Shown here: positions 31,001 to 64,000 of the stretch, piece after piece | Position numbering within the stretch: the stretch's first letter is position 1 | How the letters are laid out: every line of letters starts with the position of its first letter | Assembly: GCA_033675265.1 (NCBI GenBank) | Contig: JAUJYZ010000742.1 | Location: forward strand, 424,780-488,779 | DNA from: Actinostola sp. cb2023 | Lineage: Eukaryota > Cnidaria > Anthozoa > Actiniaria > Actinostolidae | Length of the DNA stretch: 64,000 bases | Reading direction: 5' to 3' | Program-made: the position numbers and the translations under genes | Notes under the pieces: model-generated | Seen by the model: only the letters and a program-made list of their open reading frames with translations | Databases searched by the model: none | What the model was told of the DNA's origin: nothing

Positions 31001-31489
31001 TATTGCAGTTTACTGGGAATCTGTGTCGTCCGTAGCTCCGTTAGCGATCGTATCATTCGTCGTTGTAAATGGTCATGTATTTTTAGTTTCCTTCCAGGTA
31101 CTTTTTTCTGATCCTTATTTCGTGATTGTCCTTGACGTCTAAGAATTCTATATATTGACGATCTACTTACTCCGATTTTCATAGCTATGTTGGTGATATT
31201 GACCTTTCCTAGTTGGTATAAACATTGCACCAGCGTTTTTCGGGCGTAATCATTGATGTAAAGACCATGACTTCTGCGACTTGAAAACAGCGCACGCTAA
31301 TTACATTTTTGGTGTTCACGTCATGTTGGTGTCATGTAATTGTTTTTCGAACTGATGCTCGCTCACTTTTTCCCAATTCTGCTCGAGCATATAAATAACT
31401 TAACCCATAATGCTTTGCGGGTCAAGCAGCACCTCTGTCGTTCATTTTCTTGGAGTTGGGCATATAATTCACATATTATAGCTCTCAGA
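28081..31489 (+). repeat. Array unit 7
   Basis: Extra A in GACAAAAGGAATC near 28615. Shares ATTGGAGTCC with units 6 and 8. Confidence 0.9.
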
Positions 31490-34400
31490 CAATCGTTTGC
31501 AAAATACCTTGACACACTTTGAGAAATTCGGACACTTTTTGGCACGCACGAATTTGGGTTTTCGTCCCCCCTCCCCCTTTCCAATGTTGATTGAGGGCGA
31601 TGTCGATCTACTGCGTCGTGTTCACCACTCAACATTGTAGTGGGGGAAGGGGGGTTGAGAGTTCTAAGAATATTATTTCAGGCGCAGTGTCACATTTCTG
31701 AAATATCGGTATAAAAAAGACTATTTGTGTCAACTATTTTGCAAACGACTGTAGCTGGTGATTGTGTACAGTTTGTTGTTGAAAAAAGTGAGGAAGTGAT
31801 GGTTGAGGAAAGTAGGGAAATAGTGATTGAAGAGAGTTGTGAATCTGTTTTGAATTGTCAGGAAGAGGTGGATAGTAGGGGCGAATTTGTAGAGGGGGCT
31901 GTATCAGGATTATCCACATTGTGATGTACATTATCACCACAGGAAATGGTCGAACTGAAGGGTAACAATCCCTTTGATATTGAGAAGCAACATGGTGTAA
32001 CACCACAGAAAGGAATTCGACAAAGGAATCAACACACATACAAAACAGATAAGGTTTGTAAAATAGATTTGTCAGACAGGATTTTTTATCCATGTTATAG
32101 GGCTGATTGGCTTATTTATTGAATTTATAAATTACAAAACACAGAGCTGGAGTGGGACATGTATAATCCTTCACATTTTTCTTTTTCTTTTACTCTAAAA
32201 AGTATATATATAATATATATATAAAAAACTTGAATATGAGAAAAGGTAGGCCAATGACGAGCTTCCAGTAGAAGGATTCCAGAAGGAATTCACAGTCTGC
32301 TCTCCATATCAATAGATTAAATATGACGAAACGTTAATATATTATTTGGAACAGTCAGAGGTTGCCTGCGTCTCTTCTTCTTCGTCATATTTAATCTATA
32401 TAATATAGATAGATAGATTTATTTCAAGTATTTGTAGCATGATAATTATTTGGAAATATTTTCTTGTAAAGAAGGGGAAATTCTATTATGTCTTTCATTC
32501 CACCATCCAATTTACAATTCCATATTACGCTGTATTTTCAATTTTTAATCATCTCACACTCACTATACTTTGAGATTGTACAAAAGCCTGAAACAAGGCT
32601 CCAGTGTTTAGATTCATTATAGCATACTTCTGAATATTGTGATCAATTAATGTACATTTTGTCTTAATACCTAGGCATATGTCAATATAGCTGGACTTGG
32701 ATCAACACAGCTTTTGAAAAGGATTAAAGATTCAGGGTTTAAGCGGGATGCCCAAATTCAGGTACAGTAATGTGAATGGGTCCTTACTAGCTGGGGGTCA
32801 CATATATGACCATGCATGTCAATCAAAAAGCTTTGCCAAGTACAACTTTGATGCTAGAAATGAAACAAGCAAAAATAAGTAACCAGGTTTCAGCTTTACT
32901 AGTTCTGCATGGGTAAGTTGTTAGTCAAAGTACTGTACAAAGTACCTACTGTAAAATATGTACATAGGAAAAGTCACATTTTTGGTGATATTTCACCTGT
33001 TCAAATGTTAATCATGTCCATACATGTATATAGGTAACTGCTCTTAAGAATATCCATGAAAGTAATCCAAAGGGTAGATAATGGCAGATGGCAGATGCAT
33101 GCGATGTCAGGAAAGGACTTAGAGAGTATATGTCAGGAATGTGGGCTGGGGATGAGAATCTTGATGATGGAGAACTGGACAAGCATACACAGGAATACAA
33201 ACATAGGGTTGAATTTGTCTCAAGTCTTGGAATGAAAGATAGAGAGAGATGCTTTCTTGAGGACATATCCATCATAGTCTCATGGCTCCAAGATGAGATG
33301 GTCTTTTTAAACGATGGCTTGAAACATTCAACCGTCTATGAGAAAAAAAGAACAGTTCCAAATACACCAGAGGAAATTAAAATGGAACTATCTTGGAACA
33401 TGACTGGATTTGAAGGACTGATCAAGGAGTCAAAGAACTGACTGCCTTAGAGAGTTGTGTGTACTTGAATCAAAGCAGCAAAGTTTGGGGAGAAAACTGA
33501 GAGAATTCAAAGATGATCTGTTAGCATACACAAAGCAGCTGTACAGAAAGAAAAGAACTGCAGCATCACATTTAATGGTGTTCATGGTGGCCAGTGAATT
33601 AGGAAATGTGAAACCTTATGCTATACCAGTACGTGTGATGCCATATCAGTCAATAAAAGATGCAATGTTCAGGGACCACATGGGCATGCCAGTTGTTAGT
33701 ATGTACAAATGTATTAATTTATTATTGTTTTCACTTTACCTAAAATCCTTAGATCCAATCAGCTCAGAAATGCTATTTGTCACATGACATCAGGGATTTA
33801 CATGTAGTAAATATATAATATATCATGAGGAACTTAGTGCGACTTTGAATTGCTCAGCAGGTTCTCTACTTATAGAAATAAAATGTATTTCAACACTGTC
33901 TTAATCTGTACAGTGTTGATAACGCTAAACAGCTGCTTTTAATACTTAACACGGTGGGAACATGATACATACCGGAACACGATTTTCAAGGTCATGAGTT
34001 GTAAATCATATTCGCGGGCTTTCTCCACACGATAACACATCACTCTGTAAAATCGGTCATTTTATAAAATACATTTCTATTTTATTTGGTCTATTTTTCT
34101 CGGTGCTCATTGTGACTTGAAATCGTATTTAACTCGAAAACGGCAACTAATTATTTTGGCGGGAACAACACTTCAAATCGGACTTGACTACGTGTCTAAT
34201 TGGAGTCCTGGAAGCAGCAGAGAAACTTGGCCCGCAAGAGCTGTATTTCTGTGAGTATTACAGTTTACGGTGATCTCCAGGTGCTTCCTTGGGAATCTAA
34301 TTCAGCCGGCTTTCGAACATTCGAATTCGCACGACCTGGAATTGCTTAAATTGGCGTCCTGGAAGCAGCAGAGAAACTTGGCCCGCATAGAGCTGTATCT

Positions 34401-34896
34401 CTGTGAGTATTGCAGTTTACTGGGAATCTGTGTCGTCCGTAGCTCCGTTAGCGATCGTATCATTCGTCGTTGTAAATGGTCATGTATTTTTAGTTTCCTT
34501 CCAGGTACTTTTTTCTGATCCTTATTTCGTGATTGTCCTTGACGTCTAAGAATTCTATATATTGACGATCTACTTACTCCGATTTTCATAGCTATGTTGG
34601 TGATATTGACCTTTCCTAGTTGGTATAAACATTGCACCAGCGTTTTTCGGGCGTAATCATTGATGTAAAGACCATGACTTCTGCGACTTGAAAACAGCGC
34701 ACGCTAATTACATTTTTGGTGTTCACGTCATGTTGGTGTCATGTAATTGTTTTTCGAACTGATGCTCGCTCACTTTTTCCCAATTCTGCTCGAGCATATA
34801 AATAACTTAACCCATAATGCTTTGCGGGTCAAGCAGCACCTCTGTCGTTCATTTTCTTGGAGTTGGGCATATAATTCACATATTATAGCTCTCAGA
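31490..34896 (+). repeat. Array unit 8
   Basis: Lacks GAA near 33334 (ATTCAACCGTCTATG), removing one Glu codon from the exon frame. Its inverted counterpart at 60251-63666 does not share this deletion. Confidence 0.9.
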
Positions 34897-36000
34897 CAAT
34901 CGTTTGCAAAATACCTTGACACACTTTGAGAAATTCGGACACTTTTTGGCACGCACGAATTTGGGTTTTCGTCCCCCCTCCCCCTTTCCAATGTTGATTG
35001 AGGGCGATGTCGATCTACTGTGTCGTGTTCACCACTCAACATTGTAGTGGGGGAAGGGGGGTTGAGAGTTCTAAGAATATTATTTCAGGCGCAGTGTCAC
35101 ATTTCTGAAATATCGGTATAAAAAAGACTATTTGTGTCAACTATTTTGCAAACGACTGTAGCTGGTGATTGTGTACAGTTTGTTGTTGAAAAAAGTGAGG
35201 AAGTGATGGTTGAGGAAAGTAGGGAAATAGTGATTGAAGAGAGTTGTGAATCTGTTTTGAATTGTCAGGAAGAGGTGGATAGTAGGGGCGAATTTGTAGA
35301 GGGGGCTGTATCAGGATTATCCACATTGTGATGTACATTATCACCACAGGAAATGGTCGAACTGAAGGGTAACAATCCCTTTGATATTGAGAAGCAACAT
35401 GGTGTAACACCACAGAAAGGAATTCGACAAAGGAATCAACACACATACAAAACAGATAAGGTTTGTAAAATAGATTTGTCAGACAGGATTTTTTATCCAT
35501 GTTATAGGGCTGATTGGCTTATTTATTGAATTTATAAATTACAAAACACAGAGCTGGAGTGGGACATGTATAATCCTTCACATTTTTCTTTTTCTTTTAC
35601 TCTAAAAAGTATATATATAATATATATATAAAACTTGAATATGAGAAAAGGTAGGCCAATGACGAGCTTCCAGTAGAAGGATTCCAGAAGGAATTCACAG
35701 TCTGCTCTCCATATCAATAGATTAAATATGACGAAACGTTAATATATTATTTGGAACAGTCAGAGGTTGCCTGCGTCTCTTCTTCTTCGTCATATTTAAT
35801 CTATATAATATAGATAGATAGATTTATTTCAAGTATTTGTAGCATGATAATTATTTGGAAATATTTTCTTGTAAAGAAGGGGAAATTCTATTATGTCTTT
35901 CATTCCACCATCCAATTTACAATTCCATATTACGCTGTATTTTCAATTTTTAATCATCTCACACTCACTATACTTTGAGATTGTACAAAAGCCTGAAACA
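34897..36000 (+). repeat. Array unit 9, partial (first 1.1 kb)
   Basis: Contains the MITE, Glu-rich exon tail and hairpin, then ends after CCTGAAACA in the intron. Has a private T at 35021 (CTGTGTCG) that is also present in the inverted copy near 60125. Confidence 0.9.
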
Positions 36001-37506
36001 TGTCCTATCTTAGGTAGCCTAACCATTGTTTCTGAGGCTATTTATAATTATAAAAAATATATATTTGCATGCGTGCGTCTTTTTTTGATGGGTTTCCTGT
36101 GGTAGAGCGCGCGCGCGATACGCATTATATTGGGAACCCTGTGCATATAAATGTATAATGTTGGGATCCCTGTGTACGTCATGCGGGACGCGCCCGCAGC
36201 AATGTGTATATTGAAACAAGGTATGAAACTCGGTCACGTGACAAATATGTTTTTGCCCCTAATCTTTGAATAACTAAACTTGACCGTATTCACTAAACAC
36301 TTCATAAGTATCAGTCATCTAACTTCACCGTAAGCGGAGAAACTTGATATTTTGCGCCTTATGGACCGATGTGCGCCGCATCTAGCTGGTGCACTTTTCG
36401 TGAAACATTCGGGATTTTGCCTTCGAGAGGACATCGGCAAGCGCTCGTCAAATCTGAACTGTGCTCTTTTTGGCAGTTTTAGTATTTCTATTTTCACTAA
36501 ACATAAGTCAAAACATCTACAATATACTTTATGTGTTTTGTGTTTTGATTTTTATAAAGTATTTGTTTTGTGTTTTGATTTTAATCAATTAAAATGCTTC
36601 AGAATTGAGGCATTGTGTTTTAAAATGCTGAATAGTCTCAATATTTAGTACTGTACAACACATTTTTGCTATCAGTGCTTGTACACAAAATGACAAACAA
36701 ACGTATTTATTTCAACAATCAGTTAACATAAGTTCACTAGCTTTCTACGCACTGTTTTGCCGTTCTTTCTGTGCAATTTATTCACTATATTGATCAGTAA
36801 TACCACTATATTGATCAGTAATACCACAATCGACAAGTTGTGAATGAATAACAATTCGTAATATGAACAATTTGTAAGAACTTCGGGACTTGGATATTTA
36901 CGTTCTTACGAAAACCGTATTATTTAATTACTCTTTGTTTCTCTCAGTGATAGTCATTTGCCGGCTAAATGAGTTGTTCTATTTCAATGACAATAATGAA
37001 GAACTGTTGATTTTTACTGAGTTCACATCAACTTAATTCATGAGTCGTCCATCTTCATTCATGTCTCCTTCGATGTCAGTGAATTTGAGTTTGTCTATAT
37101 TTTTGCTTTAGATGGTTTATGCTGTGTTGGCATTCCCTTGTGTTTTAAGAACAACTGTAAGAAAGTAAAAAAAATACGTCAAATACTTTCTAGATGAGAC
37201 AGTCAAAATGTTTAAAAAAAACAGGTGAAGTACCATCAGTCGGTTGAGAAGTGAGTTTTGATCACTGAAATTGACGGACAGTACTTACACAAGTCAAATA
37301 GCTCAGTCATAATTTATAAAAAAAAAAATTTGCTGAGGATTACTAAGCCCTTCTGCCCTAGTATAGGCAAGTCCTTTTATTAGAGAACATTTAGAGCAAA
37401 TACTACGTTATTACCTCAATAAATCTCTTCAGATGTCTCACCTACGGTGGACGAGAAGGGCCACTTCAAACTTCAAACTTCAAACTTCAAATAGCGTCTT
37501 CTGACA
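36001..37506. other. Single-copy stretch with small repeats, no gene seen
   Basis: Holds an alternating GC run at 36108-36116 (GCGCGCGCG), two ~20-bp direct repeats of TTGGGAACCCTGTG type near 36130-36175, and two copies of TGTGTTTTGATTTT near 36537-36582. A 22-bp direct repeat (ACTATATTGATCAGTAATAC type) lies at about 36784-36828, and four CTTCAAA units at about 37463-37492. Open frames here show no family motif. Confidence 0.5.
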
Positions 37507-37671
37507 ATGTGGTCAGCGGGGATTTTGTCACGCTATCCACGGCGTAACACGACTAACACAGCAAAAATACGAGAGCTCGTTAAACAAATAAGAGAAAAAC
37601 GTACAACATCAGCTTCTGATGTTGCAACATCAACTTCCAGTGTCACTAATCGTTCTTCCAGAACGAGCAAG
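37507..37671 (+). CDS. Candidate first coding exon (55 codons)
   Basis: The ATG at 37507 opens an uninterrupted 165-bp frame ending at a strong donor AAG|GTAGGT in phase 0. The peptide begins MWSAGILSRYPRRNTTNTAK and continues into a Lys/Arg-rich helix-like stretch (IRELVKQIREKR) and a Ser/Thr-rich tail. No domain is recognised. It is on the same strand as the kinase exons further right and could be their first exon, but the 7 kb between is mostly transposons. The inverted copy at 57473-57637 is unchanged in frame. Confidence 0.35.
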
Positions 37672-38223
37672 GTAGGTTAAATTGTGCGTTAAAAAGGCTT
37701 ACCAGCCTTTTGTCTAGATAACGATGGCTCCTCGTGTACCACGATCTATTCGTTCTGTACAATGGGTGGTCTTTGAATCTATTGTTTTTGACTTTTGTTT
37801 GAAAAGAATGATGTCTGTTGTGCTCTTCTACACGAAGTTAATGACATAAATCAAGCTTTCTTTATAATAGGGGGTGGGGCCGTTTGGTGTTTGGCCAGAG
37901 TACACCCTCGCATATTTGAATAAGAATAGAGTTCTTTGTTTTATGATAACTTGCGCGCGTTCTATAAGAAATTTAGTAGTATTTAAGAGTGAATGTCTGA
38001 TAGAACCGAGAATCGCAGGTCAGCGACCCCTTGGACAAATGTCTCAAATTTTGCCAGATGATACCTTTGGGTAACCTATTTTCGAAAAGCATATTAAAAG
38101 GTTCCAGCGCCTTTTTTCATTTTTTTTTAAATTTGAGAAAGTTCAAAAGTGTGGTCGAAGTGCTGTTTTTTTGATTGTCGCGCTGTCCAAATAATGGCGC
38201 GAGTACTAAGCGTCACTGTAGCC
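37672..38223. other. Non-coding stretch, probable intron
   Basis: I see nothing here apart from poly-T tracts near 38115-38130 and an unremarkable 66-codon frame (37874-38074). Confidence 0.4.
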
Positions 38224-38227
38224 TTAA

Positions 38228-39362
38228 AGGGGCACTGTCACGACGCGCGCATGCGTCAATTTTAATGATATGCTGAGATTTTTAATGATATGCAGAGGTC
38301 AACGAACTCGTTTGTTTACGAAGAGAAATGCGCTAGTAAATTTCAATGTTGTGTTTTGAAAGTGTTTTACCGTCAAGCTTTCGCAGAGTGCTTCCAAGTT
38401 ATTCAGAATATACAACCTTTACAGCGTGTGACCTAAATATTTCATGAAATAAGTACTTATTATAGCGACTTCTGGTGAAGGAACGTCGATAAATAGCAGA
38501 CAATCCGAGGTGACAACTCAGGTCTCAGATGAAGTTATTCACATTTCACATCGCTAAAAACCAAGTCCGTATTTAACTTCTTTGCTTCAAAAAAGACTAA
38601 CGAAGATGTACATGTCACTACTGTATAAGGTACTCGTGTTTTCTTAAATTGTAAGAGTACAAAAGAGTGCAAAAAGAACTGCACAATATAATTCCCGTGT
38701 GAAAAGTATAATCACTGAGTTCTCTTTGCCGTTGTGTCACTACTTCCAAACCTCGCAGAAATAAAAACTCATACAATGTGACAGTTGTTTGCAATAGCTT
38801 CAGTTCATATGAACTCGAAGGAATACATTGATATGATGTATACAACTGAGTTCTTTTTGAGAACATAATAATTCGAGTGAATATAATTAAGTCAATGAAC
38901 GCATTGTCAAACATTGTTGTTGTCGTTCGGAATACTTTCCTACCTCCTTTGGTACTCCAGAGCTGTTAAAGAGAAGTATAGCGAACTCAGAATCTGTAGT
39001 ATAACCGTATTCTATCTTCCCAGTAAACCAAAAACTTATAAACCTGTCGCCTGAATACATTCGTTGTCAACCACTACATCCCGGCGGCCGCCATGAGAAG
39101 CCATCGCCATCGCTCTCGCCGATTAAATAAAAAGCGTATAAAATTGGACTTCAAACCAAAAATAACTACCTACAAATACGAAACAACAATCAATCTAAGT
39201 ACTGAATAAGTATCATCTTCTAGAGTGCAAGGATTACAATGATATAATTCGATATATTAACACACTGAATTTGAATTTTCCTCGGGTCTCTTGAAAGCGT
39301 TGGTCAACGATTTCAAGATTGAAGCCAAGATTCGCGCATGCGTGTGTCGTGACAGTGCCCCT
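38228..39362 (+). mobile_element. Non-autonomous TTAA-type DNA element, copy B
   Basis: Flanked by TTAA at 38224-38227 and 39363-39366. Ends AGGGGCACTGTCACGACGCG and, read inward from the right, AGGGGCACTGTCACGACACA. Closely related to copy A along most of its length, including the CCCGGCGGCCGCCATGAGAA block, and lacks a transposase frame. Its right TTAA is shared with the next element. Confidence 0.75.
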
Positions 39363-39731
39363 TTAAGTAGCGGTCCAGCTAAGAGGTAGGCAGAATAACA
39401 ATAGACCGATACAGTGTGGTATGTTGGTGAACTTTTCGGTAATCCTTTAATTAAATTAAATCAATGCCTGCTATTGGACGAGAGGCCAAAAAAGCGCGCG
39501 AAATTTGAATTTGTTTCATAATTATCATGCTCGTTCAAAGTATTTGACCGTATTTTGTTTATTGCTATGGCTTACCAGTAACTTTTGTTGGAACATACTC
39601 AAATTTTGCCAAAATCGTATGCGCCAAAGCTCTGAATAGGAGCAGAATATATATATTTGCGAACTTTGGGGCCGGAACATATCAATTATCGGCAGTGATG
39701 TCATAGAAGAAATGTCATATTTATTTGTGGT

Positions 39732-40569
39732 GATTTAAATAACTATCGTTCCATTTCAGTACTGCCAATTTTGTCTAAAGTATTGGAGCGTCACGTTCAT
39801 ATCCATCTTTATGAATATCTTAACAACAATAACCTCTTGTATGCCTGCCAGTCTGGCTTCCGAAGACATCATGGAACAGATACAGCTCTCATTAAAACCG
39901 TAGATAAAATCCTTCTCGACTTGGACAAAGACTGTGTAAATGGCTTAGTGCTCATCGACTACCGCAAAGCATTCGACATGGTTGATCATAACATTCTGAT
40001 GGCGAAACTAAAGGTTTATGGAATGTCAGACTGCACGAGTAAATGGTTCTCCTCCTACCTCAACCACAGACAGCAGTGTGTTTCTCTTGATGGACAGTTA
40101 TCTAATTGTATGGATGTCAAACATGGGGTGCCTCAAGGAAGTATTTTGGGTCCGTTGTTTTTTATTATTTACATCAAAGACCTGCCACTTCATATTCAGT
40201 CTTCCAATGTACAAGTAGACCTTTATGCTGATGACACAAGCTTGTCCTACTCCACGAATGTGACCTCCATGGACAATATGAACAACACCTTGAATTGTGC
40301 TTGGAGTGATGTTGAAAATTGGGTGAACGCCAATAAACTTCCATTAAATGAATCGAAGACAAAAACTATGTTAATCACTGGAAAACGTTTGGATGCCAAG
40401 CTAACATCTGATGAAAGGCAGTTATCTATCAATACGTCTGGTGGTGAAGTTATAGAGCAAGTTGATTCAGCAAAGCTACTTGGCTTAGTCATCGACAAAC
40501 AAATGTCATTTACCAACCATATTGATACACTATGTAAAAAACAATCTCAAAGGATAGGTGTACTTAATA
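39732..40569 (+). pseudogene. LINE ORF2 reverse transcriptase, N-proximal part
   Basis: The frame contains NNYRSISVLPILSKVLER (RT domain 0/1), SGFRRHHGTDTA, LVLIDYRKAFDMVDH (block A with the first catalytic Asp), KHGVPQGSILGPLFF (block B) and DLYADDTSLS (block C, YADD at 40224-40235). It then runs on through the thumb region to RIGVLN. The YADD box and block order are those of non-LTR retrotransposons of the CR1/L2/Jockey group. The apparent extension to 40676 is read into the inserted transposon. The endonuclease and 5' half are missing, so it cannot be autonomous. Confidence 0.85.
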
Positions 40570-42821
40570 GACCTTTTGCGTATAAGACATGTGTCCTATG
40601 TACCAGAATGTCCTACTTATGTCAGGGTATTGTTATGCATGCACGTGAGAGACATAGGGATCCATTAATGGCGTGAAAACATGAAGTATGCAGATTAATA
40701 TTTCGCCATTGTGAAAGTTGTGAATTTTATTGCTGCATGCAAGCGAGTGTGACTGTGGAATTCTTTGCAAACGCGGAATGTAATACGATTAGTATAGAGT
40801 GTTCGTTTGCCTTGCGTTGCCGAAACTGAGATCAAGGTTGACTGTCAGGGCTTGCCTGATATTTGTTTGCGGGTTTTGGAACCCTAAAATATAAGAAAAC
40901 ACACAATTTGTAGCGACCACAATGCACTTTGGTCTGGGAATGCAATATGCAACAAAACCTAGGACAACGTGTTTTTGAATTGTATCAGGAGCCCATTACT
41001 ATTATGGGCTCCTGGCTGTATACACGTATATCCATGTTGGAAAGTTAAAATAAATATGTGGATATAGTATTAAAAATGATTAGTGTTGGTTTAGATGGGC
41101 ATTGGCGCATTGGGTAAGTCTCTGCAGTTACTCGTAGGCTAATGAAGCAAAATTTAGACCCCCTAATTGTCTGAGCTCTCGTAAGCGACCATCTCCCGTA
41201 AGCAACCACCTCCCGTAAGCGACCAATAGGCTTGACATTTTGGGTGGTCGCTTAATGGAGGTTCGACTGTATTTATTTTGCTATGCATGGTTTATTGTTT
41301 GCCATCTATTTCATGCTAGCGCTGACATTGTGTGCGCTTTTCTCTAGTTCTTAGTTTTATACTAAAGACTGGTTCGCATTTGATCACTACGTTCGTCGAA
41401 TCGAAAAACGTGCCCAGCGATCGCAGCGATTCACACAAATTTTAAAACATAATCCCGAATAATCAAGTTACCACACAGATGTCAGCTGCATTTATACCTC
41501 GTTCTGGTGTCAGATTACTATTAATTTACTTACTTTTTAGCAATTTCAATTGAAAGTGGATAGAAATACCTCTAAATAACATCGGAATTAACGCCGTAGA
41601 ACCTCCATGTATCAATAAACTAAGTTAACATTTAAAAAAATAGATTATTAAGGTGAATAGTGGCGCTATATAAAATGTATTATTATTATTATTATTTATA
41701 TTGAAGTGATTTCTAAAATAAAAAAATAAGGGTGATAGACACGTTAAAATTGATAAATAATGAATTAATAAAAGGTAATAAAAAAGAATGAATTGATAAA
41801 ATAAATTTAAAATCAGGATTTTGAAAAACTGATCATTGTTTGCAAGACAAATTAATGCAATTTTAGGACACTCGATCGTTGCCGTCAGTTCCGCAGTCCA
41901 AACTTTTCAGATTCTCAAATTTCCCAGGATCACTTTTGCGGCGACTTGGGGATCATTTTTGCGGCGGTACAAGTAGCCTGCGTATCGATCCAAAGGGAAG
42001 TGGGAAGGGGGGAGGAGGAGTGGAAGGGAAAGCGGGAGAGGGATTGGCAAGGATATTAGTGTCAATATGCAAATATCATTAATTTACTATATTTATCACT
42101 TCATCTCAGCTTCACGTGTGAAAATCTCCTTTGGGTAGAAATAAAGAAAAATAGATATTGAATGTTTATAGAAACTAACGGAATTCCACATAAATATAAT
42201 GTCTAATGCAAAAAAAAAACCAATGATTGTCACAGTTGACTCTGACATAGACAATTTCAGTCGATGGAGTGCACGCGTTGTATCCGTAAAATACTAACTA
42301 TTTAGCGACTATAAATAAATTGCATATTTCAGTTAGCACAGTTGCACAATATATTGCGGTTCAAACAATAACAACCACGTTGAATGGTTTGAACAACTTT
42401 ATTTCATTTTATTTTGTTTTATTAGCTTTGCCATATAGCAGGGTCACCACAACAGCGTTAGCCAATCACTGCGGGCCCGTAGGACAGACCATACTTTACA
42501 AAATTTTATCGATTTACATCAATCCTTTGTTGTTATTTTTTTTTTTTTTCTGATGGTTATAATGCGTGCACACAAAATCCTTTGTTGAAACTAGTGGTAT
42601 TTTGCACTATTTGTTCGAATTGTTCGTGCTATTGAATGCACTCTAGCATTAATGGTATGCAGCTTACAAACTAACAAAAGATGCTGATAACTATATAGCA
42701 CATTGTTGGTAATGTGAAAGCATGCAGATCGGCGGTGTGAACCTCCTCATTATCTTGTTCGCGTGCCCTGATAAGTAGGACGTCCTGGTACATAGGACAT
42801 ATGTCTTATACGCAAAAGGTC
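40570..42821. mobile_element. 2.25-kb DNA transposon nested in the LINE
   Basis: Terminal inverted repeats of 56-58 bp (40570-40627 and 42766-42821) begin GACCTTTTGCGTATAAGACA on both strands and differ at about four positions. The flanks carry TAATA at 40565-40569 and 42822-42826, a 5-bp target duplication (3-bp AAT if the ends include one more base). Excising it with one TAATA rejoins the LINE frame exactly. No transposase frame is present, so it is non-autonomous; the superfamily is unresolved. Confidence 0.75.
41161..41271 (-). mobile_element. Pogo/Tigger-like terminal fragment with 18-bp subrepeats
   Basis: On the minus strand, CAGTCGAACCTCCATTAAGC follows a TA and continues GACCACCC, resembling pogo-type ends. 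Inside it, three ~18-bp units built on CCGTAAGCGACCA lie at about 41178-41229. Only one terminus is seen. Confidence 0.45.
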
Positions 42822-42826
42822 TAATA

Positions 42827-43365
42827 GGATCAAGTCGTGCTTACCATTACAACAAAGAGTTCTCTACTACAATGCAATGATAAGACCTGTAATGAGCTAT
42901 GCCAGTGTTGTTTTGGCATAAGTGCTGTAAGGACAGTTTGCTGAGGATCCTACGCCTTCAAAAGAGAGCTGCGAGAACAATTCTTGACGCTCATGCAAGA
43001 TCTTCTTCAGTTATGCTGTTTAACAAACTACGATGGTTGTCATTCTACAATGACGCGAAAATTGCCAAGTGTCTCATCATGTATAAGAGATCTCAGAACA
43101 TTGTGCCTCAGTATTTAATTGACTCCTTAATATTAAACTCAAATGTACATTCTAGGAACACTAGATACTCCAAAAGTAGTTTTGTTTGCCCTAAATTCAA
43201 AAGGGTGTCTGAAGGAGGAAAATCTTTTGTAGTTTTTCAGCAACTCAACTTTGAAATAGCCTACCACACAATATGAAAACCAAACCTAGTTTGAAGTCAT
43301 TTAAGTCAGCCATTTATAATATGTTTTTTGACGAACAGTCTTCGTTCAATCATTTTAATCCGTAA
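42827..43365 (+). pseudogene. LINE ORF2, C-terminal part
   Basis: Continues the reverse-transcriptase frame after the nested transposon: RIKSCLPLQQRVLYYNAM, IRPVMSYASVVWHKCC, LLRILRLQKRAARTILDAHA, and a C-terminal tail ending at TAA 43363-43365. This matches the C-terminal domain of CR1/L2-like ORF2 proteins. The left-arm copy has an extra T near 42911 and extra T's near 43235 that break the frame; the right-arm copy lacks these. In both arms a TGA stands where relatives have Trp (43257-43288 region), so the LINE is dead regardless. Confidence 0.75.
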
Positions 43366-43640
43366 AGTTTACGTATCAATTATTATCAGCTATTTAAATA
43401 TTTAATAATTAGTGTTGAAATATATAAAATTTATTATTGCATAGTATATGGATATATAATTATTAATTGTTATAAATACATTGTATATCAATCTAAATCT
43501 AAATCTAATTGTAGTATAGTGTAATTGTAGTGTAGGTTTTTAAGATATTTATATTATATTGTTATTTATTAAGTTTAGTGAGGGCCACAAGTTTGTAAGT
43601 GTATTTAACTTTTATGTGTTCCCCTCTTGAAATAAAGTCT

Positions 43641-43662
43641 TCATCATCATCATCATCATCAT
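43641..43662. repeat. (TCA)n tail of the LINE
   Basis: About seven TCA units follow AATAAAGTCT and mark the 3' end of the LINE. Confidence 0.8.
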
Positions 43663-50456: not shown

Positions 50457-50608
50457 CAGGAACCTTTTTAAGCGATTTAATATACCCTATTTTTCGCCGT
50501 AACTTTCTGTGCAATTTATACTCATTCTCGAAATGGCTCGCAAAAATATTTGATTTACAGATCAGAACAATGTTTGGACTCAAATTAATTGTCGATAGTG
50601 CTTCTTTT
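50457..50608 (-). CDS. Candidate exon upstream of kinase gene, inverted copy
   Basis: Mirror of 44543-44695. Differs at the acceptor-proximal codons (CAGAAAAGAAG here, CAGATAAAGAAG in the left arm). Confidence 0.25.
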
Positions 50609-51784: not shown

Positions 51785-52325
51785 TTACGGATTAAAATGA
51801 TTGAACGAAGACTGTTCGTCAAAAAACATATTATAAATGGCTGACTTAAATGACTTCAAACTAGGTTTGGTTTTCATATTGTGTGGTAGGCTATTTCAAA
51901 GTTGAGTTGCTGAAACTACAAAAGATTTTCCTCCTTCAGACACCCTTTTGAATTTAGGGCAAACAAAACTACTTTTGGAGTATCTAGTGTTCCTAGAATG
52001 TACATTTGAGTTTAATATTAAGGAGTCAATTAAATACTGAGGCACAATGTTCTGAGATCTCTTATACATGATGAGACACTTGGCAATTTTCGCGTCATTG
52101 TAGAATGACAACCATCGTAGTTTGTTAAACAGCATAACTGAAGAAGATCTTGCATGAGCGTCAAGAATTGTTCTCGCAGCTCTCTTTTGAAGGCGTAGGA
52201 TCCTCAGCAAACTGTCCTTACAGCACTTATGCCAAACAACACTGGCATAGCTCATTACAGGTCTTATCATTGCATTGTAGTAGAGAACTCTTTGTTGTAA
52301 TGGTAAGCACGACTTGATCCTATTA
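51785..52325 (-). pseudogene. LINE ORF2 C-terminal part, inverted copy
   Basis: Mirror of 42827-43365. This copy reads IRPVMSYASVVWHKCC and SFVVSATQL without the T insertions of the left arm, then the same TGA in place of Trp. Confidence 0.75.
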
Positions 52326-54581
52326 GACCTTTTGCGTATAAGACATATGTCCTATGTACCAGGACGTCCTACTTATCAGGGCACGCGAACAAGATAATGA
52401 GGAGGTTCACACCGCCGATCTGCATGCTTTCACATTACCAACAATGTGCTATATAGTTATCAGCATCTTTTGTTAGTTTGTAAGCTGCATACCATTAATG
52501 CTAGAGTGCATTCAATAGCACGAACAATTCGAACAAATAGTGCAAAATACCACTAGTTTCAACAAAGGATTTTGTGTGCACGCATTATAACCATCAGAAA
52601 AAAAAAAAAAAAATAACAACAAAGGATTGATGTAAATCGATAAAATTTTTGTAAAGTATGGTCTGTCCTACGGGCCCGCAGTGATTGGCTAACGCTGTTG
52701 TGGTGACCCTGCTATATGGCAAAGCTAATAAAACAAAATAAAATGAAATAAAGTTGTTCAAACCATTCAACGTGGTTGTTATTGTTTGAACCGCAATATA
52801 TTGTGCAACTGTGCTAACTGAAATATGCAATTTATTTATAGTCGCTAAATAGTTAGTATTTTACGGATACAACGCGTGCACTCCATCGACTGAAATTGTC
52901 TATGTCAGAGTCAACTGTGACAATCATTGGTTTTTTTTTGCATTAGACATTATATTTATGTGGAATTCCGTTAGTTTCTATAAACATTCAATATCTATTT
53001 TTCTTTATTTCTACCCAAAGGAGATTTTCACACGTGAAGCTGAGATGAAGTGATAAATATAGTAAATTAATGATATTTGCATATTGACACTAATATCCTT
53101 GCCAATCCCTCTCCCGCTTTCCCTTCCACTCCTCCTCCCCCCTTCCCACTTCCCTTTGGATCGATACGCAGGCTACTTGTACCGCCGCAAAAATGATCCC
53201 CAAGTCGCCGCAAAAGTGATCCTGGGAAATTTGAGAATCTGAAAAGTTTGGACTGCGGAACTGACGGCAACGATCGAGTGTCCTAAAATTGCATTAATTT
53301 GTCTTGCAAACAATGATCAGTTTTTCAAAATCCTGATTTTAAATTTATTTTATCAATTCATTCTTTTTTATTACCTTTTATTAATTCATTATTTATCAAT
53401 TTTAACGTGTCTATCACCCTTATTTTTTTATTTTAGAAATCACTTCAATATAAATAATAATAATAATAATACATTTTATATAGCGCCACTATTCACCTTA
53501 ATAATCTATTTTTTTAAATGTTAACTTAGTTTATTGATACATGGAGGTTCTACGGCGTTAATTCCGATGTTATTTAGAGGTATTTCTATCCACTTTCAAT
53601 TGAAATTGCTAAAAAGTAAGTAAATTAATAGTAATCTGACACCAGAACGAGGTATAAATGCAGCTGACATCTGTGTGGTAACTTGATTATTCGGGATTAT
53701 GTTTTAAAAATTTGTGTGAATCGCTGCGATCGCTGGGCACGTTTTTCGATTCGACGAACGTAGTGATCAAATGCGAACCAGTCTTTAGTATAAAACTAAG
53801 AACTAGAGAAAAGCGCACACAATGTCAGCGCTAGCATGAAATAGATGGCAAACAATAAACCATGCATAGCAAAATAAATACAGTCGAACCTCCATTAAGC
53901 GACCACCCAAAATGTCAAGCCTATTGGTCGCTTACGGGAGGTGGTTGCTTACGGGAGATGGTCGCTTACGAGAGCTCAGACAATTAGGGGGTCTAAATTT
54001 TGCTTCATTAGCCTACGAGTAACTGCAGAGACTTACCCAATGCGCCAATGCCCATCTAAACCAACACTAATCATTTTTAATACTATATCCACATATTTAT
54101 TTTAAACTTTCCAACATGGATATACGTGTATACAGCCAGGAGCCCATAATAGTAATGGGCTCCTGATACAATTCAAAAACACGTTGTCCTAGGTTTTGTT
54201 GCATATTGCATTCCCAGACCAAAGTGCATTGTGGTCGCTACAAATTGTGTGTTTTCTTATATTTTAGGGTTCCAAAACCCGCAAACAAATATCAGGCAAG
54301 CCCTGACAGTCAACCTTGATCTCAGTTTCGGCAACGCAAGGCAAACGAACACTCTATACTAATCGTATTACATTCCGCGTTTGCAAAGAATTCCACAGTC
54401 ACACTCGCTTGCATGCAGCAATAAAATTCACAACTTTCACAATGGCGAAATATTAATCTGCATACTTCATGTTTTCACGCCATTAATGGATCCCTATGTC
54501 TCTCACGTGCATGCATAACAATACCCTGACATAAGTAGGACATTCTGGTACATAGGACACATGTCTTATACGCAAAAGGTC
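52326..54581. mobile_element. DNA transposon nested in the LINE, inverted copy
   Basis: Mirror of 40570-42821 with TATTA (complement of TAATA) at 52321-52325 and 54582-54586. Confidence 0.75.
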
Positions 54582-55420
54582 TATTAAGTACACCTATCCT
54601 TTGAGATTGTTTTTTACATAGTGTATCAATATGGTTGGTAAATGACATTTGTTTGTCGATGACTAAGCCAAGTAGCTTTGCTGAATCAACTTGCTCTATA
54701 ACTTCACCACCAGACGTATTGATAGATAACTGCCTTTCATCAGATGTTAGCTTGGCATCCAAACGTTTTCCAGTGATTAACATAGTTTTTGTCTTCGATT
54801 CATTTAATGGAAGTTTATTGGCGTTCACCCAATTTTCAACATCACTCCAAGCACAATTCAAGGTGTTGTTCATATTGTCCATGGAGGTCACATTCGTGGA
54901 GTAGGACAAGCTTGTGTCATCAGCATAAAGGTCTACTTGTACATTGGAAGACTGAATATGAAGTGGCAGGTCTTTGATGTAAATAATAAAAAACAACGGA
55001 CCCAAAATACTTCCTTGAGGCACCCCATGTTTGACATCCATACAATTAGATAACTGTCCATCAAGAGAAACACACTGCTGTCTGTGGTTGAGGTAGGAGG
55101 AGAACCATTTACTCGTGCAGTCTGACATTCCATAAACCTTTAGTTTCGCCATCAGAATGTTATGATCAACCATGTCGAATGCTTTGCGGTAGTCGATGAG
55201 CACTAAGCCATTTACACAGTCTTTGTCCAAGTCGAGAAGGATTTTATCTACGGTTTTAATGAGAGCTGTATCTGTTCCATGATGTCTTCGGAAGCCAGAC
55301 TGGCAGGCATACAAGAGGTTATTGTTGTTAAGATATTCATAAAGATGGATATGAACGTGACGCTCCAATACTTTAGACAAAATTGGCAGTACTGAAATGG
55401 AACGATAGTTATTTAAATCA
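54582..55420 (-). pseudogene. LINE ORF2 reverse transcriptase, inverted copy
   Basis: Mirror of 39732-40569. The translated 301-codon frame is identical to the left-arm copy, an unusual degree of identity for an ancient duplicate. Confidence 0.85.
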
Positions 55421-55785
55421 CCACAAATAAATATGACATTTCTTCTATGACATCACTGCCGATAATTGATATGTTCCGGCCCCAAAGTTCGCAAATATAT
55501 ATATTCTGCTCCTATTCAGAGCTTTGGCGCATACGATTTTGGCAAAATTTGAGTATGTTCCAACAAAAGTTACTGGTAAGCCATAGCAATAAACAAAATA
55601 CGGTCAAATACTTTGAACGAGCATGATAATTATGAAACAAATTCAAATTTCGCGCTTTTTGGCCTCTCGTCCAATAGCAGGCATTGATTTAATTTAATTA
55701 AAGGATTACCGAAAAGTTCACCAACATACCACACTGTATCGGTCTATTGTTATTCTGCCTACCTCTTAGCTGGACCGCTACTTAA

Positions 55786-56919
55786 AGGGGCACTGTCACG
55801 ACACACGCATGCGCGAATCTTGGCTTCAATCTTGAAATCGTTGACCAACGCTTTCAAGAGACCCGAGGAAAATTCAAATTCAGTGTGTTAATATATCGAA
55901 TTATATCATTGTAATCCTTGCACTCTAGAAGATGATACTTATTCAGTACTTAGATTGATTGTTGTTTCGTATTTGTAGGTAGTTATTTTTGGTTTGAAGT
56001 CCAATTTTATACGCTTTTTATTTAATCGGCGAGAGCGATGGCGATGGCTTCTCATGGCGGCCGCCGGGATGTAGTGGTTGACAACGAATGTATTCAGGCG
56101 ACAGGTTTATAAGTTTTGGTTTACTGGGAAGATAGAATACGGTTATACTACAGATTCTGAGTTCGCTATACTTCTCTTTAACAGCTCTGGAGTACCAAAG
56201 GAGGTAGGAAAGTATTCCGAACGACAACAACAATGTTTGACAATGCGTTCATTGACTTAATTATATTCACTCGAATTATTATGTTCTCAAAAAGAACTCA
56301 GTTGTATACATCATATCAATGTATTCCTTCGAGTTCATATGAACTGAAGCTATTGCAAACAACTGTCACATTGTATGAGTTTTTATTTCTGCGAGGTTTG
56401 GAAGTAGTGACACAACGGCAAAGAGAACTCAGTGATTATACTTTTCACACGGGAATTATATTGTGCAGTTCTTTTTGCACTCTTTTGTACTCTTACAATT
56501 TAAGAAAACACGAGTACCTTATACAGTAGTGACATGTACATCTTCGTTAGTCTTTTTTGAAGCAAAGAAGTTAAATACGGACTTGGTTTTTAGCGATGTG
56601 AAATGTGAATAACTTCATCTGAGACCTGAGTTGTCACCTCGGATTGTCTGCTATTTATCGACGTTCCTTCACCAGAAGTCGCTATAATAAGTACTTATTT
56701 CATGAAATATTTAGGTCACACGCTGTAAAGGTTGTATATTCTGAATAACTTGGAAGCACTCTGCGAAAGCTTGACGGTAAAACACTTTCAAAACACAACA
56801 TTGAAATTTACTAGCGCATTTCTCTTCGTAAACAAACGAGTTCGTTGACCTCTGCATATCATTAAAAATCTCAGCATATCATTAAAATTGACGCATGCGC
56901 GCGTCGTGACAGTGCCCCT
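55786..56919 (-). mobile_element. TTAA-type element copy B, inverted copy
   Basis: Mirror of 38228-39362, between TTAA at 55782-55785 and 56920-56923. Confidence 0.75.
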
Positions 56920-57472
56920 TTAAGGCTACAGTGACGCTTAGTACTCGCGCCATTATTTGGACAGCGCGACAATCAAAAACAGCACTTCGACCACACTTTT
57001 GAACTTTCTCAAATTTAAAAAAAAATGAAAAGGCGCTGGAACCTTTTAATATGCTTTTCGAAAATAGGTTACCCAAAGGTATCATCTGGCAAAATTTGAG
57101 ACATTTGTCCAAGGGGTCGCTGACCTGCGATTCTCGGTTCTATCAGACATTCACTCTTAAATACTACTAAATTTCTTATAGAACGCGCGCAAGTTATCAT
57201 AAAACAAAGAACTCTATTCTTATTCAAATATGCGAGGGTGTACTCTGGCCAAACACCAAACGGCCCCACCCCCTATTATAAAGAAAGCTTGATTTATGTC
57301 ATTAACTTCGTGTAGAAGAGCACAACAGACATCATTCTTTTCAAACAAAAGTCAAAAAACAATAGATTCAAAGACCACCCATTGTACAGAACGAATAGAT
57401 CGTGGTACACGAGGAGCCATCGTTATCTAGACAAAAGGCTGGTAAGCCTTTTTAACGCACAATTTAACCTAC

Positions 57473-57637
57473 CTTGCTCGTTCTGGAAGAACGATTAGTG
57501 ACACTGGAAGTTGATGTTGCAACATCAGAAGCTGATGTTGTACGTTTTTCTCTTATTTGTTTAACGAGCTCTCGTATTTTTGCTGTGTTAGTCGTGTTAC
57601 GCCGTGGATAGCGTGACAAAATCCCCGCTGACCACAT
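57473..57637 (-). CDS. Candidate first exon, inverted copy
   Basis: Mirror of 37507-37671 with the same 55-codon frame and donor. Confidence 0.3.
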
Positions 57638-59146
57638 TGTCAGAAGACGCTATTTGAAGTTTGAAGTTTGAAGTTTGAAGTGGCCCTTCTCGTCCACCGT
57701 AGGTGAGACATCTGAAGAGATTTATTGAGGTAATAACGTAGTATTTGCTCTAAATGTTCTCTAATAAAAGGACTTGCCTATACTAGGGCAGAAGGGCTTA
57801 GTAATCCTCAGCAAATTATTTTTTTTATAAATTATGACTGAGCTATTTGACTTGTGTAAGTACTGTCCGTCAATTTCAGTGATCAAAACTCACTTCTCAA
57901 ACCGACTGATGGTACTTCACCTGTTTTTTTTAAAACATTTTGACTGTCTCATCTAGAAAGTATTTGACGTATTTTTTTTTACTTTCTTACAGTTGTTCTT
58001 AAAACACAAGGGAATGCCAACACAGCATAAACCATCTAAAGCAAAAATATAGACAAACTCAAATTCACTGACATCGAAGGAGACATGAATGAAGATGGAC
58101 GACTCATGAATTAAGTTGATGTGAACTCAGTAAAAATCAACAGTTCTTCATTATTGTCATTGAAATAGAACAACTCATTTAGCCGGCAAATGACTATCAC
58201 TGAGAGAAACAAAGAGTAATTAAATAATACGGTTTTCGTAAGAACGTAAATATCCAAGTCCCGAAGTTCTTACAAATTGTTCATATTACGAATTGTTATT
58301 CATTCACAACTTGTCGATTGTGGTATTACTGATCAATATAGTGGTATTACTGATCAATATAGTGAATAAATTGCACAGAAAGAACGGCAAAACAGTGCGT
58401 AGAAAGCTAGTGAACTTATGTTAACTGATTGTTGAAATAAATACGTTTGTTTGTCATTTTGTGTACAAGCACTGATAGCAAAAATGTGTTGTACAGTACT
58501 AAATATTGAGACTATTCAGCATTTTAAAACACAATGCCTCAATTCTGAAGCATTTTAATTGATTAAAATCAAAACACAAAACAAATACTTTATAAAAATC
58601 AAAACACAAAACACATAAAGTATATTGTAGATGTTTTGACTTATGTTTAGTGAAAATAGAAATACTAAAACTGCCAAAAAGAGCACAGTTCAGATTTGAC
58701 GAGCGCTTGCCGATGTCCTCTCGAAGGCAAAATCCCGAATGTTTCACGAAAAGTGCACCAGCTAGATGCGGCGCACATCGGTCCATAAGGCGCAAAATAT
58801 CAAGTTTCTCCGCTTACGGTGAAGTTAGATGACTGATACTTATGAAGTGTTTAGTGAATACGGTCAAGTTTAGTTATTCAAAGATTAGGGGCAAAAACAT
58901 ATTTGTCACGTGACCGAGTTTCATACCTTGTTTCAATATACACATTGCTGCGGGCGCGTCCCGCATGACGTACACAGGGATCCCAACATTATACATTTAT
59001 ATGCACAGGGTTCCCAATATAATGCGTATCGCGCGCGCGCTCTACCACAGGAAACCCATCAAAAAAAGACGCACGCATGCAAATATATATTTTTTATAAT
59101 TATAAATAGCCTCAGAAACAATGGTTAGGCTACCTAAGATAGGACA
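57638..59146. other. Inverted copy of the single-copy stretch 36001-37506
   Basis: Same small repeats in reverse order, including the CTTCAAA run (57652-57680, as TTTGAAG) and the GC run at 59031-59040. Confidence 0.6.
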
Positions 59147-60250
59147 TGTTTCAGGCTTTTGTACAATCTCAAAGTATAGTGAGTGTGAGATGATTAAAAA
59201 TTGAAAATACAGCGTAATATGGAATTGTAAATTGGATGGTGGAATGAAAGACATAATAGAATTTCCCCTTCTTTACAAGAAAATATTTCCAAATAATTAT
59301 CATGCTACAAATACTTGAAATAAATCTATCTATCTATATTATATAGATTAAATATGACGAAGAAGAAGAGACGCAGGCAACCTCTGACTGTTCCAAATAA
59401 TATATTAACGTTTCGTCATATTTAATCTATTGATATGGAGAGCAGACTGTGAATTCCTTCTGGAATCCTTCTACTGGAAGCTCGTCATTGGCCTACCTTT
59501 TCTCATATTCAAGTTTTATATATATATTATATATATACTTTTTAGAGTAAAAGAAAAAGAAAATGTGAAGGATTATACATGTCCCACTCCAGCTCTGTGT
59601 TTTGTAATTTATAAATTCAATAAATAAGCCAATCAGCCCTATAACATGGATAAAAAATCCTGTCTGACAAATCTATTTTACAAACCTTATCTGTTTTGTA
59701 TGTGTGTTGATTCCTTTGTCGAATTCCTTTCTGTGGTGTTACACCATGTTGCTTCTCAATATCAAAGGGATTGTTACCCTTCAGTTCGACCATTTCCTGT
59801 GGTGATAATGTACATCACAATGTGGATAATCCTGATACAGCCCCCTCTACAAATTCGCCCCTACTATCCACCTCTTCCTGACAATTCAAAACAGATTCAC
59901 AACTCTCTTCAATCACTATTTCCCTACTTTCCTCAACCATCACTTCCTCACTTTTTTCAACAACAAACTGTACACAATCACCAGCTACAGTCGTTTGCAA
60001 AATAGTTGACACAAATAGTCTTTTTTATACCGATATTTCAGAAATGTGACACTGCGCCTGAAATAATATTCTTAGAACTCTCAACCCCCCTTCCCCCACT
60101 ACAATGTTGAGTGGTGAACACGACACAGTAGATCGACATCGCCCTCAATCAACATTGGAAAGGGGGAGGGGGGACGAAAACCCAAATTCGTGCGTGCCAA
60201 AAAGTGTCCGAATTTCTCAAAGTGTGTCAAGGTATTTTGCAAACGATTGT
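59147..60250 (-). repeat. Partial array unit 9, inverted copy
   Basis: Carries the same private variant as the left-arm unit 9 (ACACAGTAGATC near 60122), showing that it copies that specific unit. Confidence 0.85.
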
Positions 60251-63200
60251 CTGAGAGCTATAATATGTGAATTATATGCCCAACTCCAAGAAAATGAACG
60301 ACAGAGGTGCTGCTTGACCCGCAAAGCATTATGGGTTAAGTTATTTATATGCTCGAGCAGAATTGGGAAAAAGTGAGCGAGCATCAGTTCGAAAAACAAT
60401 TACATGACACCAACATGACGTGAACACCAAAAATGTAATTAGCGTGCGCTGTTTTCAAGTCGCAGAAGTCATGGTCTTTACATCAATGATTACGCCCGAA
60501 AAACGCTGGTGCAATGTTTATACCAACTAGGAAAGGTCAATATCACCAACATAGCTATGAAAATCGGAGTAAGTAGATCGTCAATATATAGAATTCTTAG
60601 ACGTCAAGGACAATCACGAAATAAGGATCAGAAAAAAGTACCTGGAAGGAAACTAAAAATACATGACCATTTACAACGACGAATGATACGATCGCTAACG
60701 GAGCTACGGACGACACAGATTCCCAGTAAACTGCAATACTCACAGAGATACAGCTCTATGCGGGCCAAGTTTCTCTGCTGCTTCCAGGACGCCAATTTAA
60801 GCAATTCCAGGTCGTGCGAATTCGAATGTTCGAAAGCCGGCTGAATTAGATTCCCAAGGAAGCACCTGGAGATCACCGTAAACTGTAATACTCACAGAAA
60901 TACAGCTCTTGCGGGCCAAGTTTCTCTGCTGCTTCCAGGACTCCAATTAGACACGTAGTCAAGTCCGATTTGAAGTGTTGTTCCCGCCAAAATAATTAGT
61001 TGCCGTTTTCGAGTTAAATACGATTTCAAGTCACAATGAGCACCGAGAAAAATAGACCAAATAAAATAGAAATGTATTTTATAAAATGACCGATTTTACA
61101 GAGTGATGTGTTATCGTGTGGAGAAAGCCCGCGAATATGATTTACAACTCATGACCTTGAAAATCGTGTTCCGGTATGTATCATGTTCCCACCGTGTTAA
61201 GTATTAAAAGCAGCTGTTTAGCGTTATCAACACTGTACAGATTAAGACAGTGTTGAAATACATTTTATTTCTATAAGTAGAGAACCTGCTGAGCAATTCA
61301 AAGTCGCACTAAGTTCCTCATGATATATTATATATTTACTACATGTAAATCCCTGATGTCATGTGACAAATAGCATTTCTGAGCTGATTGGATCTAAGGA
61401 TTTTAGGTAAAGTGAAAACAATAATAAATTAATACATTTGTACATACTAACAACTGGTATGCCCATGTGCTCCCTGAACATTGCATCTTTTATTGACTGA
61501 TATGGCATCACACGTACTGGTATAGCATAAGGTTTCACATTTCCTAATTCACTGGCCACCATGAACACCATTAAATGTGATGCTGCAGTTCTTTTCTTTC
61601 TGTACAGCTGCTTTGTGTATGCTAACAGATCATCTTTGAATTCTCTCAGTTTTCTCCCCAAACTTTGCTGCTTTGATTCAAGTACACACAACTCTCTAAG
61701 GCAGTCAGTTCTTTGACTCCTTGATCAGTCCTTCAAATCCAGTCATGTTCCAAGATAGTTCCATTTTAATTTCCTCTGGTGTATTTGGAACTGTTCTTTT
61801 TTTCTCATAGACTTTGGTTGAATGTTTCAAGCCATCGTTTAAAAAGACCATCTCATCTTGGAGCCATGAGACTATGATGGATATGTCCTCAAGAAAGCAT
61901 CTCTCTCTATCTTTCATTCCAAGACTTGAGACAAATTCAACCCTATGTTTGTATTCCTGTGTATGCTTGTCCAGTTCTCCATCATCAAGATTCTCATCCC
62001 CAGCCCACATTCCTGACATATACTCTCTAAGTCCTTTCCTGACATCGCATGCATCTGCCATCTGCCATTATCTACCCTTTGGATTACTTTCATGGATATT
62101 CTTAAGAGCAGTTACCTATATACATGTATGGACATGATTAACATTTGAACAGGTGAAATATCACCAAAAATGTGACTTTTCCTATGTACATATTTTACAG
62201 TAGGTACTTTGTACAGTACTTTGACTAACAACTTACCCATGCAGAACTAGTAAAGCTGAAACCTGGTTACTTATTTTTGCTTGTTTCATTTCTAGCATCA
62301 AAGTTGTACTTGGCAAAGCTTTTTTGATTGACATGCATGGTCATATATGTGACCCCCAGCTAGTAAGGACCCATTCACATTACTGTACCTGAATTTGGGC
62401 ATCCCGCTTAAACCCTGAATCTTTAATCCTTTTCAAAAGCTGTGTTGATCCAAGTCCAGCTATATTGACATATGCCTAGGTATTAAGACAAAATGTACAT
62501 TAATTGATCACAATATTCAGAAGTATGCTATAATGAATCTAAACACTGGAGCCTTGTTTCAGGCTTTTGTACAATCTCAAAGTATAGTGAGTGTGAGATG
62601 ATTAAAAATTGAAAATACAGCGTAATATGGAATTGTAAATTGGATGGTGGAATGAAAGACATAATAGAATTTCCCCTTCTTTACAAGAAAATATTTCCAA
62701 ATAATTATCGTGCTACAAATACTTGAAATAAATCTATCTATCTATATTATATAGATTAAATATGACGAAGAAGAAGAGACGCAGGCAACCTCTGACTGTT
62801 CCAAATAATATATTAACGTTTCGTCATATTTAATCTATTGATATGGAGAGCAGACTGTGAATTCCTTCTGGAATCCTTCTACTGGAAGCTCGTCATTGGC
62901 CTACCTTTTCTCATATTCAAGTTTTATATATATATTATATATATATACTTTTTAGAGTAAAAGAAAAAGAAAAATGTGAAGGATTATACATGTCCCACTC
63001 CAGCTCTGTGTTTTGTAATTTATAAATTCAATAAATAAGCCAATCAGCCCTATAACATGGATAAAAAATCCTGTCTGACAAATCTATTTTACAAACCTTA
63101 TCTGTTTTGTATGTGTGTTGATTCCTTTGTCGAATTCCTTTCTGTGGTGTTACACCATGTTGCTTCTCAATATCAAAGGGATTGTTACCCTTCAGTTCGA

Positions 63201-63666
63201 CCATTTCCTGTGGTGATAATGTACATCACAATGTGGATAATCCTGATACAGCCCCCTCTACAAATTCGCCCCCCTACTATCCACCTCTTCCTGACAATTC
63301 AAAAACAGATTCACAACTCTCTTCAATCACTATTTCCCTACTTTCCTCAACCATCACTTCCTCACTTTTTTCAACAACAAACTGTACACAATCACCAGCT
63401 ACAGTCGTTTGCAAAATAGTTGACACAAATAGTCTTTTTTATACCGATATTTCAGAAATGTGACACTGCGCCTGAAATAATATTCTTAGAACTCTCAACC
63501 CCCCTTTCCCCCACTACAATATTGAGTGGTGAACACGACGCAGTAGATCGACATCGCCCTCAATCAACATTGGAAAGGGGGAGGGGGGACGAAAACCCAA
63601 ATTCGTGCGTGCCAAAAAGTGTCCGAATTTCTCAAAGTGTGTCAAGGTATTATTGCCAACGATTGT
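60251..63666 (-). repeat. Array unit 8, inverted copy with differences
   Basis: Contains the Tc1-like fragment (60509-60844, plus strand here) and the exon frames 61359-61691 and 61705-62061. It keeps the codon deleted in left-arm unit 8 but as AAA instead of GAA (K for E). It also has REHMGIPVV where all other units have RDHMGMPVV. Other differences lie near 62326, 62709, 63272 and 63527. Confidence 0.8.
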
Positions 63667-64000
63667 CTGAGAGCGTATAATATGTGAATTATATGCCCAA
63701 CTCCAAGAAAATGACGACCAGAGGTGCTGCTTGACCCGCAAAAGCATTATGGGTTAAGTTATTTATATGCTCGAGCAGAATTGGGAAAAGTGAGCGAGCA
63801 TCAGTTCGAAAACAATTACATGACACCAACATGACGTGAACACCAAAAATGTAATTAGCGTGCGCTGTTTTCAAGTCGCAGAAGTCATGGTCTTTACATC
63901 AATGATTACGCCCGAAAAACTGCTGGGCTGCAATGTTTATAGCCAACTAGGAAAGGTCAATATCCCAACATAGCTATGAAAATCGGAGTAAGTAGATCGT
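63667..64000 (-). repeat. Start of array unit 7, inverted copy, dense indels
   Basis: Matches the right end of a unit but with many one-base insertions and deletions (for example near 63655, 63714, 63741, 63921 and 63964). This is far above the rate between any two left-arm units and typical of unpolished long-read sequence. Confidence 0.75.

Follow-up and report, generated by a model that had tools for sequence, protein, structure and literature searches.

The stretch of DNA analyzed here (hereafter the window) comprises 64,000 nucleotides of a contig of Actinostola sp. cb2023 (JAUJYZ010000742.1). Its main features are a tandem array and a large palindrome, which has a protein kinase gene at its center. 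The array (7826-36000) consists of about 8.3 copies of a unit of about 3.41 kb, which are about 99.6-99.9% identical in self-comparison. One unit is shorter (about 3.22 kb, 18043-21260), and one 118-aa frame piece of the unit gave no Pfam match. A dispersed direct repeat of about 1.15 kb (6103-7206 and 38224-39367, 90% identical) flanks the array on both sides. Both palindrome arms carry a reverse transcriptase open reading frame (ORF) of 325 aa, located at 39699-40676 on the plus strand and at 54475-55452 on the minus strand (RVT_1, E 1.3e-28 in Pfam for the left copy). No tRNA was found in the window by ARAGORN with the bacterial code, and nothing in it reached the gathering score of Rfam.

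We infer that the window belongs to the PacBio/DBG2OLC/Racon/Pilon genome described in PMC10803348, a paper tied to it by species name only. According to that description, reads of a 20-kb PacBio library and Illumina reads, both deposited under SRR25988563-SRR25988567, were processed with LoRDEC, DBG2OLC, Racon (run on uncorrected PacBio reads), Pilon, and Redundans. The same paper reports a coverage of 280x and a heterozygosity of 0.9%.

A BLASTN comparison of the window with its own reverse complement returned a single inverted self-match over 31158-64000, with 99.34% identity over 32,932 columns, which cannot be a product of chance. This agrees with the earlier note, which had described the sequence from about 31.1 to 47.57 kb as mirrored up to the window end. 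The self-match contains 40 mismatches and 149 gap openings, each of them counted twice because the match spans both halves. The palindrome is centered between 47570 and 47571, and the arms measure at least 16.4 kb each; the palindrome ends at 64000 because the window ends there, leaving its true outer end out of view. About 11.6 kb per arm is situated outside the tandem array. The outer 4.8 kb (31158-36000 and 59147-64000) lies inside it and would therefore also match other array units.

At the center we located the 7-bp stem and 6-nt loop that the earlier note had pointed out. Read straight off the sequence, the exact inverted match extends over 24 nt on each side (CAGCCAGGAGATGCATGCCAAAAT), and the 7-bp stem is thus the inner portion of a longer match. 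The description of the palindrome as spacerless was nearly right, as the arms abut except for 6 nt between them. In other words, a sequence is directly succeeded by its own reverse complement, the arrangement looked for in a fold-back artefact. A 29-base stretch near the center had no exact match in genome and viral contig collections, from which records of the own genome had possibly been left out, and a literature search found no published account of a palindrome in Actinostola.

Table 1. Palindrome, kinase exons, and associated features (positions in the window)
Feature	Position	Strand	Basis and remarks
Left palindrome arm	31158-47570	+	BLASTN self-comparison; 31158-36000 inside the tandem array
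Right palindrome arm, inverted copy up to the window end	47571-64000	-	BLASTN self-comparison
Palindrome center: 7-bp stem CCAAAAT/ATTTTGG, 6-nt loop CCACAA (minus strand TTGTGG)	47561-47580	.	
Kinase exon 1, left arm (QZH41_015868 residues 9-197), 1 frame error	45798-46365	+	tblastn, frameshift-tolerant alignment
Kinase exon 2, left arm (residues 198-356), aligned span	47099-47581	+	tblastn, frameshift-tolerant alignment
Kinase exon 2, right-arm copy, aligned span	47561-48049	-	tblastn, frameshift-tolerant alignment
Kinase exon 1, right-arm copy, 3 frame errors, each +1	48784-49353	-	tblastn, frameshift-tolerant alignment
QZH41_003150 pieces, overall extent	46823-63204	-	tblastn of QZH41_003150 (P0002)
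Outer 2.5 kb of the right arm, excess of private differences	61450-64000	-	7-row alignment

The kinase assignment rests on a 131-aa composite of window frames, which passed the Pfam Pkinase model (PF00069) over residues 9-131 with 105 bits (cut-off 31.7, E 5.8e-30). A deposited protein on another contig of Actinostola sp. cb2023 (328,839 bp), namely QZH41_015868 (P0030; partial, 417 aa), is 98% identical to a 343-residue composite query, 98% of which is covered, and judged by this identity it is the same kinase gene as the one at the palindrome center. When its residues 9-355 are searched as exact 5-residue words, 335 of the 347 are recovered in the left-arm exon region, 332 in the right one, and 343 in either; the four unmatched residues are V344, which sits at a frame error, and C-D-F at the junction. 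Past DFG (KICDFG-GIGKLRQKLSV...), the sequence of QZH41_015868 (...NILVSQEMHAKICDFG) runs on for 62 more residues. This tail was not found as exact 5-residue words in the exon regions of the arms, and tblastn against the whole window gave chance matches only (best E 3.0). The check proposed earlier, whether the kinase continues past DFG elsewhere in the genome, thus has a positive answer at the protein level: an uninterrupted locus is predicted on another contig. Since that contig is known from its length and one protein, it could represent the other allele or a paralogue.

The two strands of the center do not read equally well. Read from the minus strand, the loop together with the second half of the stem gives the native C-D-F-G codons, apart from one inserted base and one base lacking at the last G, which falls where the inverted copy begins. 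The plus-strand reading, on the other hand, requires one insertion and two wrong residues. As the minus-strand reading through the loop is the better one, it was probably the 3' end of the sense strand that folded back, using a short inverted repeat that occurs there naturally. A native coding loop on the minus strand is as predicted for snap-back priming, and it lends support to the earlier suggestion that the center is a site where a strand can fold back and prime on itself.

We also compared the arms with each other. Their differences amount to 85 merged events, of which 22 remain after homopolymer compression. Isolated substitutions, taken as those with six identical columns on either side, number six in the whole arm comparison. 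Five of these, including one within an AT run, lie in the array part (31633-33688), whereas the sixth, beside a poly-A at 37326, is the sole one in 33700-46500. In this 12.8-kb interval about 115 would be expected at 0.9% heterozygosity; a further few substitutions there adjoin indels. The arms are hence free of haplotype-level substitutions, and such a near-absence of isolated substitutions is as expected if both arms derive from one molecule. The differences, mainly homopolymer indels, are of the sequencing type, although the five isolated substitutions at 31633-33688 fit less well. A 151-aa ORF at 51896-52351 is present in the ORF list of the right arm only.

The differences are also crowded toward the center. 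Counted over 84 events, with the center gap excluded, 19 lie within 500 bp of the center (2.6 expected), 26 within 1 kb (5.1 expected), and 42 within 3 kb (15.4 expected), and 20 are found in the 10.4 kb of 34158-44564. Another 15 occur in the outermost 1 kb, an excess that the center argument does not explain. Raw PacBio sequence is characterized by insertion-rich errors. Frameshift-tolerant alignment to the residues of QZH41_015868 yielded 10 events in exon 2 of the left arm (seven of +1, one of -1, and two wrong residues), the last three at the center itself, and 14 in its right-arm copy (eleven of +1, one of +2, one of -1, and one wrong residue), the last two at the center. Exon 1, situated 1.2-1.8 kb from the center, contains one event in the left arm and three in the right. 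Errors are therefore a property of both arms and not of the right arm alone, with one event in exon 1 and ten in exon 2 on the left. Near the center both arms are of poor quality, insertions making up 7 of the left and 12 of the right exon 2 events in the manner of raw PacBio sequence.

Two other causes of this gradient were considered and rejected. Nanopore base-calling quality is described to drop at inverted duplicates (PMC7229812), but the paper connected with the assembly describes PacBio and Illumina reads (PMC10803348). Ambiguous short-read mapping should hit the whole arms, yet the middle of the arm is cleaner.

The part of the palindrome inside the tandem array was studied in a 7-row alignment of 4.85 kb, consisting of the right arm and six left-hand stretches. 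At columns 1080 and 3884 the right arm agrees, among the six, only with the corresponding last left-hand stretch, and it thus looks like a copy of that array end. It has 27 private columns, 26 of which are concentrated in its outer 2.5 kb, whereas the left-hand stretches have two in each of five and twelve in one. The excess in the outer right arm, which takes in most of the isolated substitutions and likewise does not follow from the center argument, may mark either a patched join in the array or the point where a fold-back read ended.

We are highly confident that the palindrome is an assembly artefact of one kind or another. The earlier note had left two readings side by side, a fold-back molecule or assembly error and a real palindromic duplication; the intact QZH41_015868 and the error gradient support the former and render the latter unlikely. 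Counting against an artefact are the errors found in the left arm as well, the 151-aa ORF listed for the right arm only, and the surplus of differences at the outer end. As the specific route, a hairpin-ended library molecule is the one we favor, and we hold it to be reasonably likely.

During PacBio library making, a fragment would have ended within the kinase exon, and the 3' end of its sense strand (...CCAAAAT-TTGTG-ATTTTGG) would have snapped back on the inverted repeat that the AKICDFG codons and their neighbors make up. Through end repair and ligation, this end of the fragment could then have become a closed, natural hairpin. A polymerase would have followed the sense strand, rounded the hairpin with no adapter in its path, and continued on the antisense strand, yielding a forward-plus-reverse-complement read that DBG2OLC presumably built into the contig. 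In the polishing steps, Racon and Pilon would have corrected the arms using ordinary reads of the true locus, but not the center. The latter would be left as it was because reads of the true locus run past DFG and get clipped there, and such clipping predicts cleaner arms and a dirty center, as observed.

Molecules of this kind are not without precedent. Of the unamplified PacBio control reads examined in the paper on Pacasus (PMC6218980), 0.5% contained palindromes; the paper points to missed or missing SMRTbell adaptors as well as to false positives, and it states that palindromic reads harm assemblies. The term "siamaera" appears in PMC6557899, where it is used for amplicon concatemers. As in siamaera-type PacBio reads, a sequence is followed at once by its reverse complement, with both apparently coming from one molecule; unlike those reads, the palindrome is known here only after assembly and polishing, and it has a native 7-bp stem, a short loop, and no adapter sequence. 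For libraries of historic DNA, hairpin loops at natural inverted repeats that are extended in library preparation have been proposed (PMC3946424). Both cases share the short natural inverted repeat and a 3' end folded onto the strand to which it belongs, whereas those palindromes were described for short-read libraries of historic or ancient DNA and the arms here reach at least 16.4 kb each.

Among the alternatives, an undetected SMRTbell adapter at the center would also make the palindrome an artefact, but we consider it unlikely. Missed adapters are a recognized source of palindromic PacBio reads (PMC6218980), and consensus building could have erased a remnant of one; the 6 nt at the center, however, are too small for an adapter. 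A search of the window, thus of consensus sequence only, for the adapter core (21 bases) with up to three mismatches gave no match, and the hairpin-ended molecule is therefore favored over an undetected adapter.

A pure assembler join, in which two normal reads of opposite strands are connected at the inverted repeat and no fold-back molecule exists, is a third kind of artefact and in our view rather improbable. In DBG2OLC, short-read contigs serve as anchors on long reads, and the outer 2.5 kb of the right arm does look patched. Nonetheless, a native loop that passes into the reverse complement after seven paired bases would better suit a self-priming strand, and joining on the basis of overlap should need a longer common sequence.

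Critically speaking, a real inverted duplication would resemble the hairpin product in several respects. It would have to be very recent, be present in one haplotype or at a second locus, and have arisen by fold-back priming in vivo at the same inverted repeat, which we deem very improbable. Just as improbable is the scenario that follows from it, with a young head-to-head copy segregating in the anemone, the AK-I-x-DFG codons of the kinase as the repeat, and the intact contig as the parental, unrearranged form. Near-identical arms and a native stem with a short loop are equally expected from fold-back in vivo. Large inverted duplications formed in this way are the topic of PMC3907307, and the palindrome shares their geometry, in which a short spacer separates the inverted arms at a naturally occurring inverted repeat. 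At 280x, however, many reads would be expected to span such a junction and polishing to work there as well as in the adjoining sequence, whereas the consensus errors peak precisely there: no other part of the arms is as poor as the center, where both carry insertion errors. A junction of the poorest quality, together with an intact gene predicted elsewhere in the assembly on a different contig, sets the palindrome apart from the duplications described in that paper.

Finally, a head-to-head join of two haplotypes, for which a heterozygous genome and a redundancy-reducing step in the pipeline (PMC10803348) could be put forward, was rejected as next to impossible, since one isolated substitution in 12.8 kb stands against about 115 expected and two array columns are common to the right arm and the last stretch only.

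A probable artefact of this kind is ordinary as biology but useful for curation. A false inverted duplication appears to sit in the contig and in at least one deposited protein, QZH41_003150, and could be mistaken for gene duplication or amplification in counts. This protein (312 aa) is a deposited Actinostola sp. cb2023 sequence on the 488,779-bp contig and is built from array, LINE, exon-1, and antisense-intron pieces. Its pieces follow one another on the minus strand at 63204-63094, 62475-62389, 59799-59686, 55302-55123, 49848-49786, 49183-49034, and 48966-48781, and then at 46906-46823 beyond the center. The early pieces match both arms or other array units equally. Residues 222-283, on the other hand, fit the right arm better (95% vs 81%), and residues 283-310 match the left-arm antisense strand at 100% against 68% for the right-arm mirror. 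Because the pieces run from the right arm into the left-arm antisense strand, we conclude that this chimeric gene model was predicted across the palindrome center and that the window lies on the 488,779-bp contig. The combination used here, sequencing-type differences crowded at a center and an intact copy elsewhere, can be applied without raw reads and could serve to screen further assemblies of long reads.

Two minor features lie to the left of the array. On the minus strand, an open stretch at 3448-3933 contains DIEKNPGP, which we take to be a 2A-like motif, followed by a weak Herpes_teg_N match (E 9.1e-5, under the curated cut-off). At 706-1257, weak DUF3504 and phage-integrase matches under their curated cut-offs perhaps point to a tyrosine-recombinase element.
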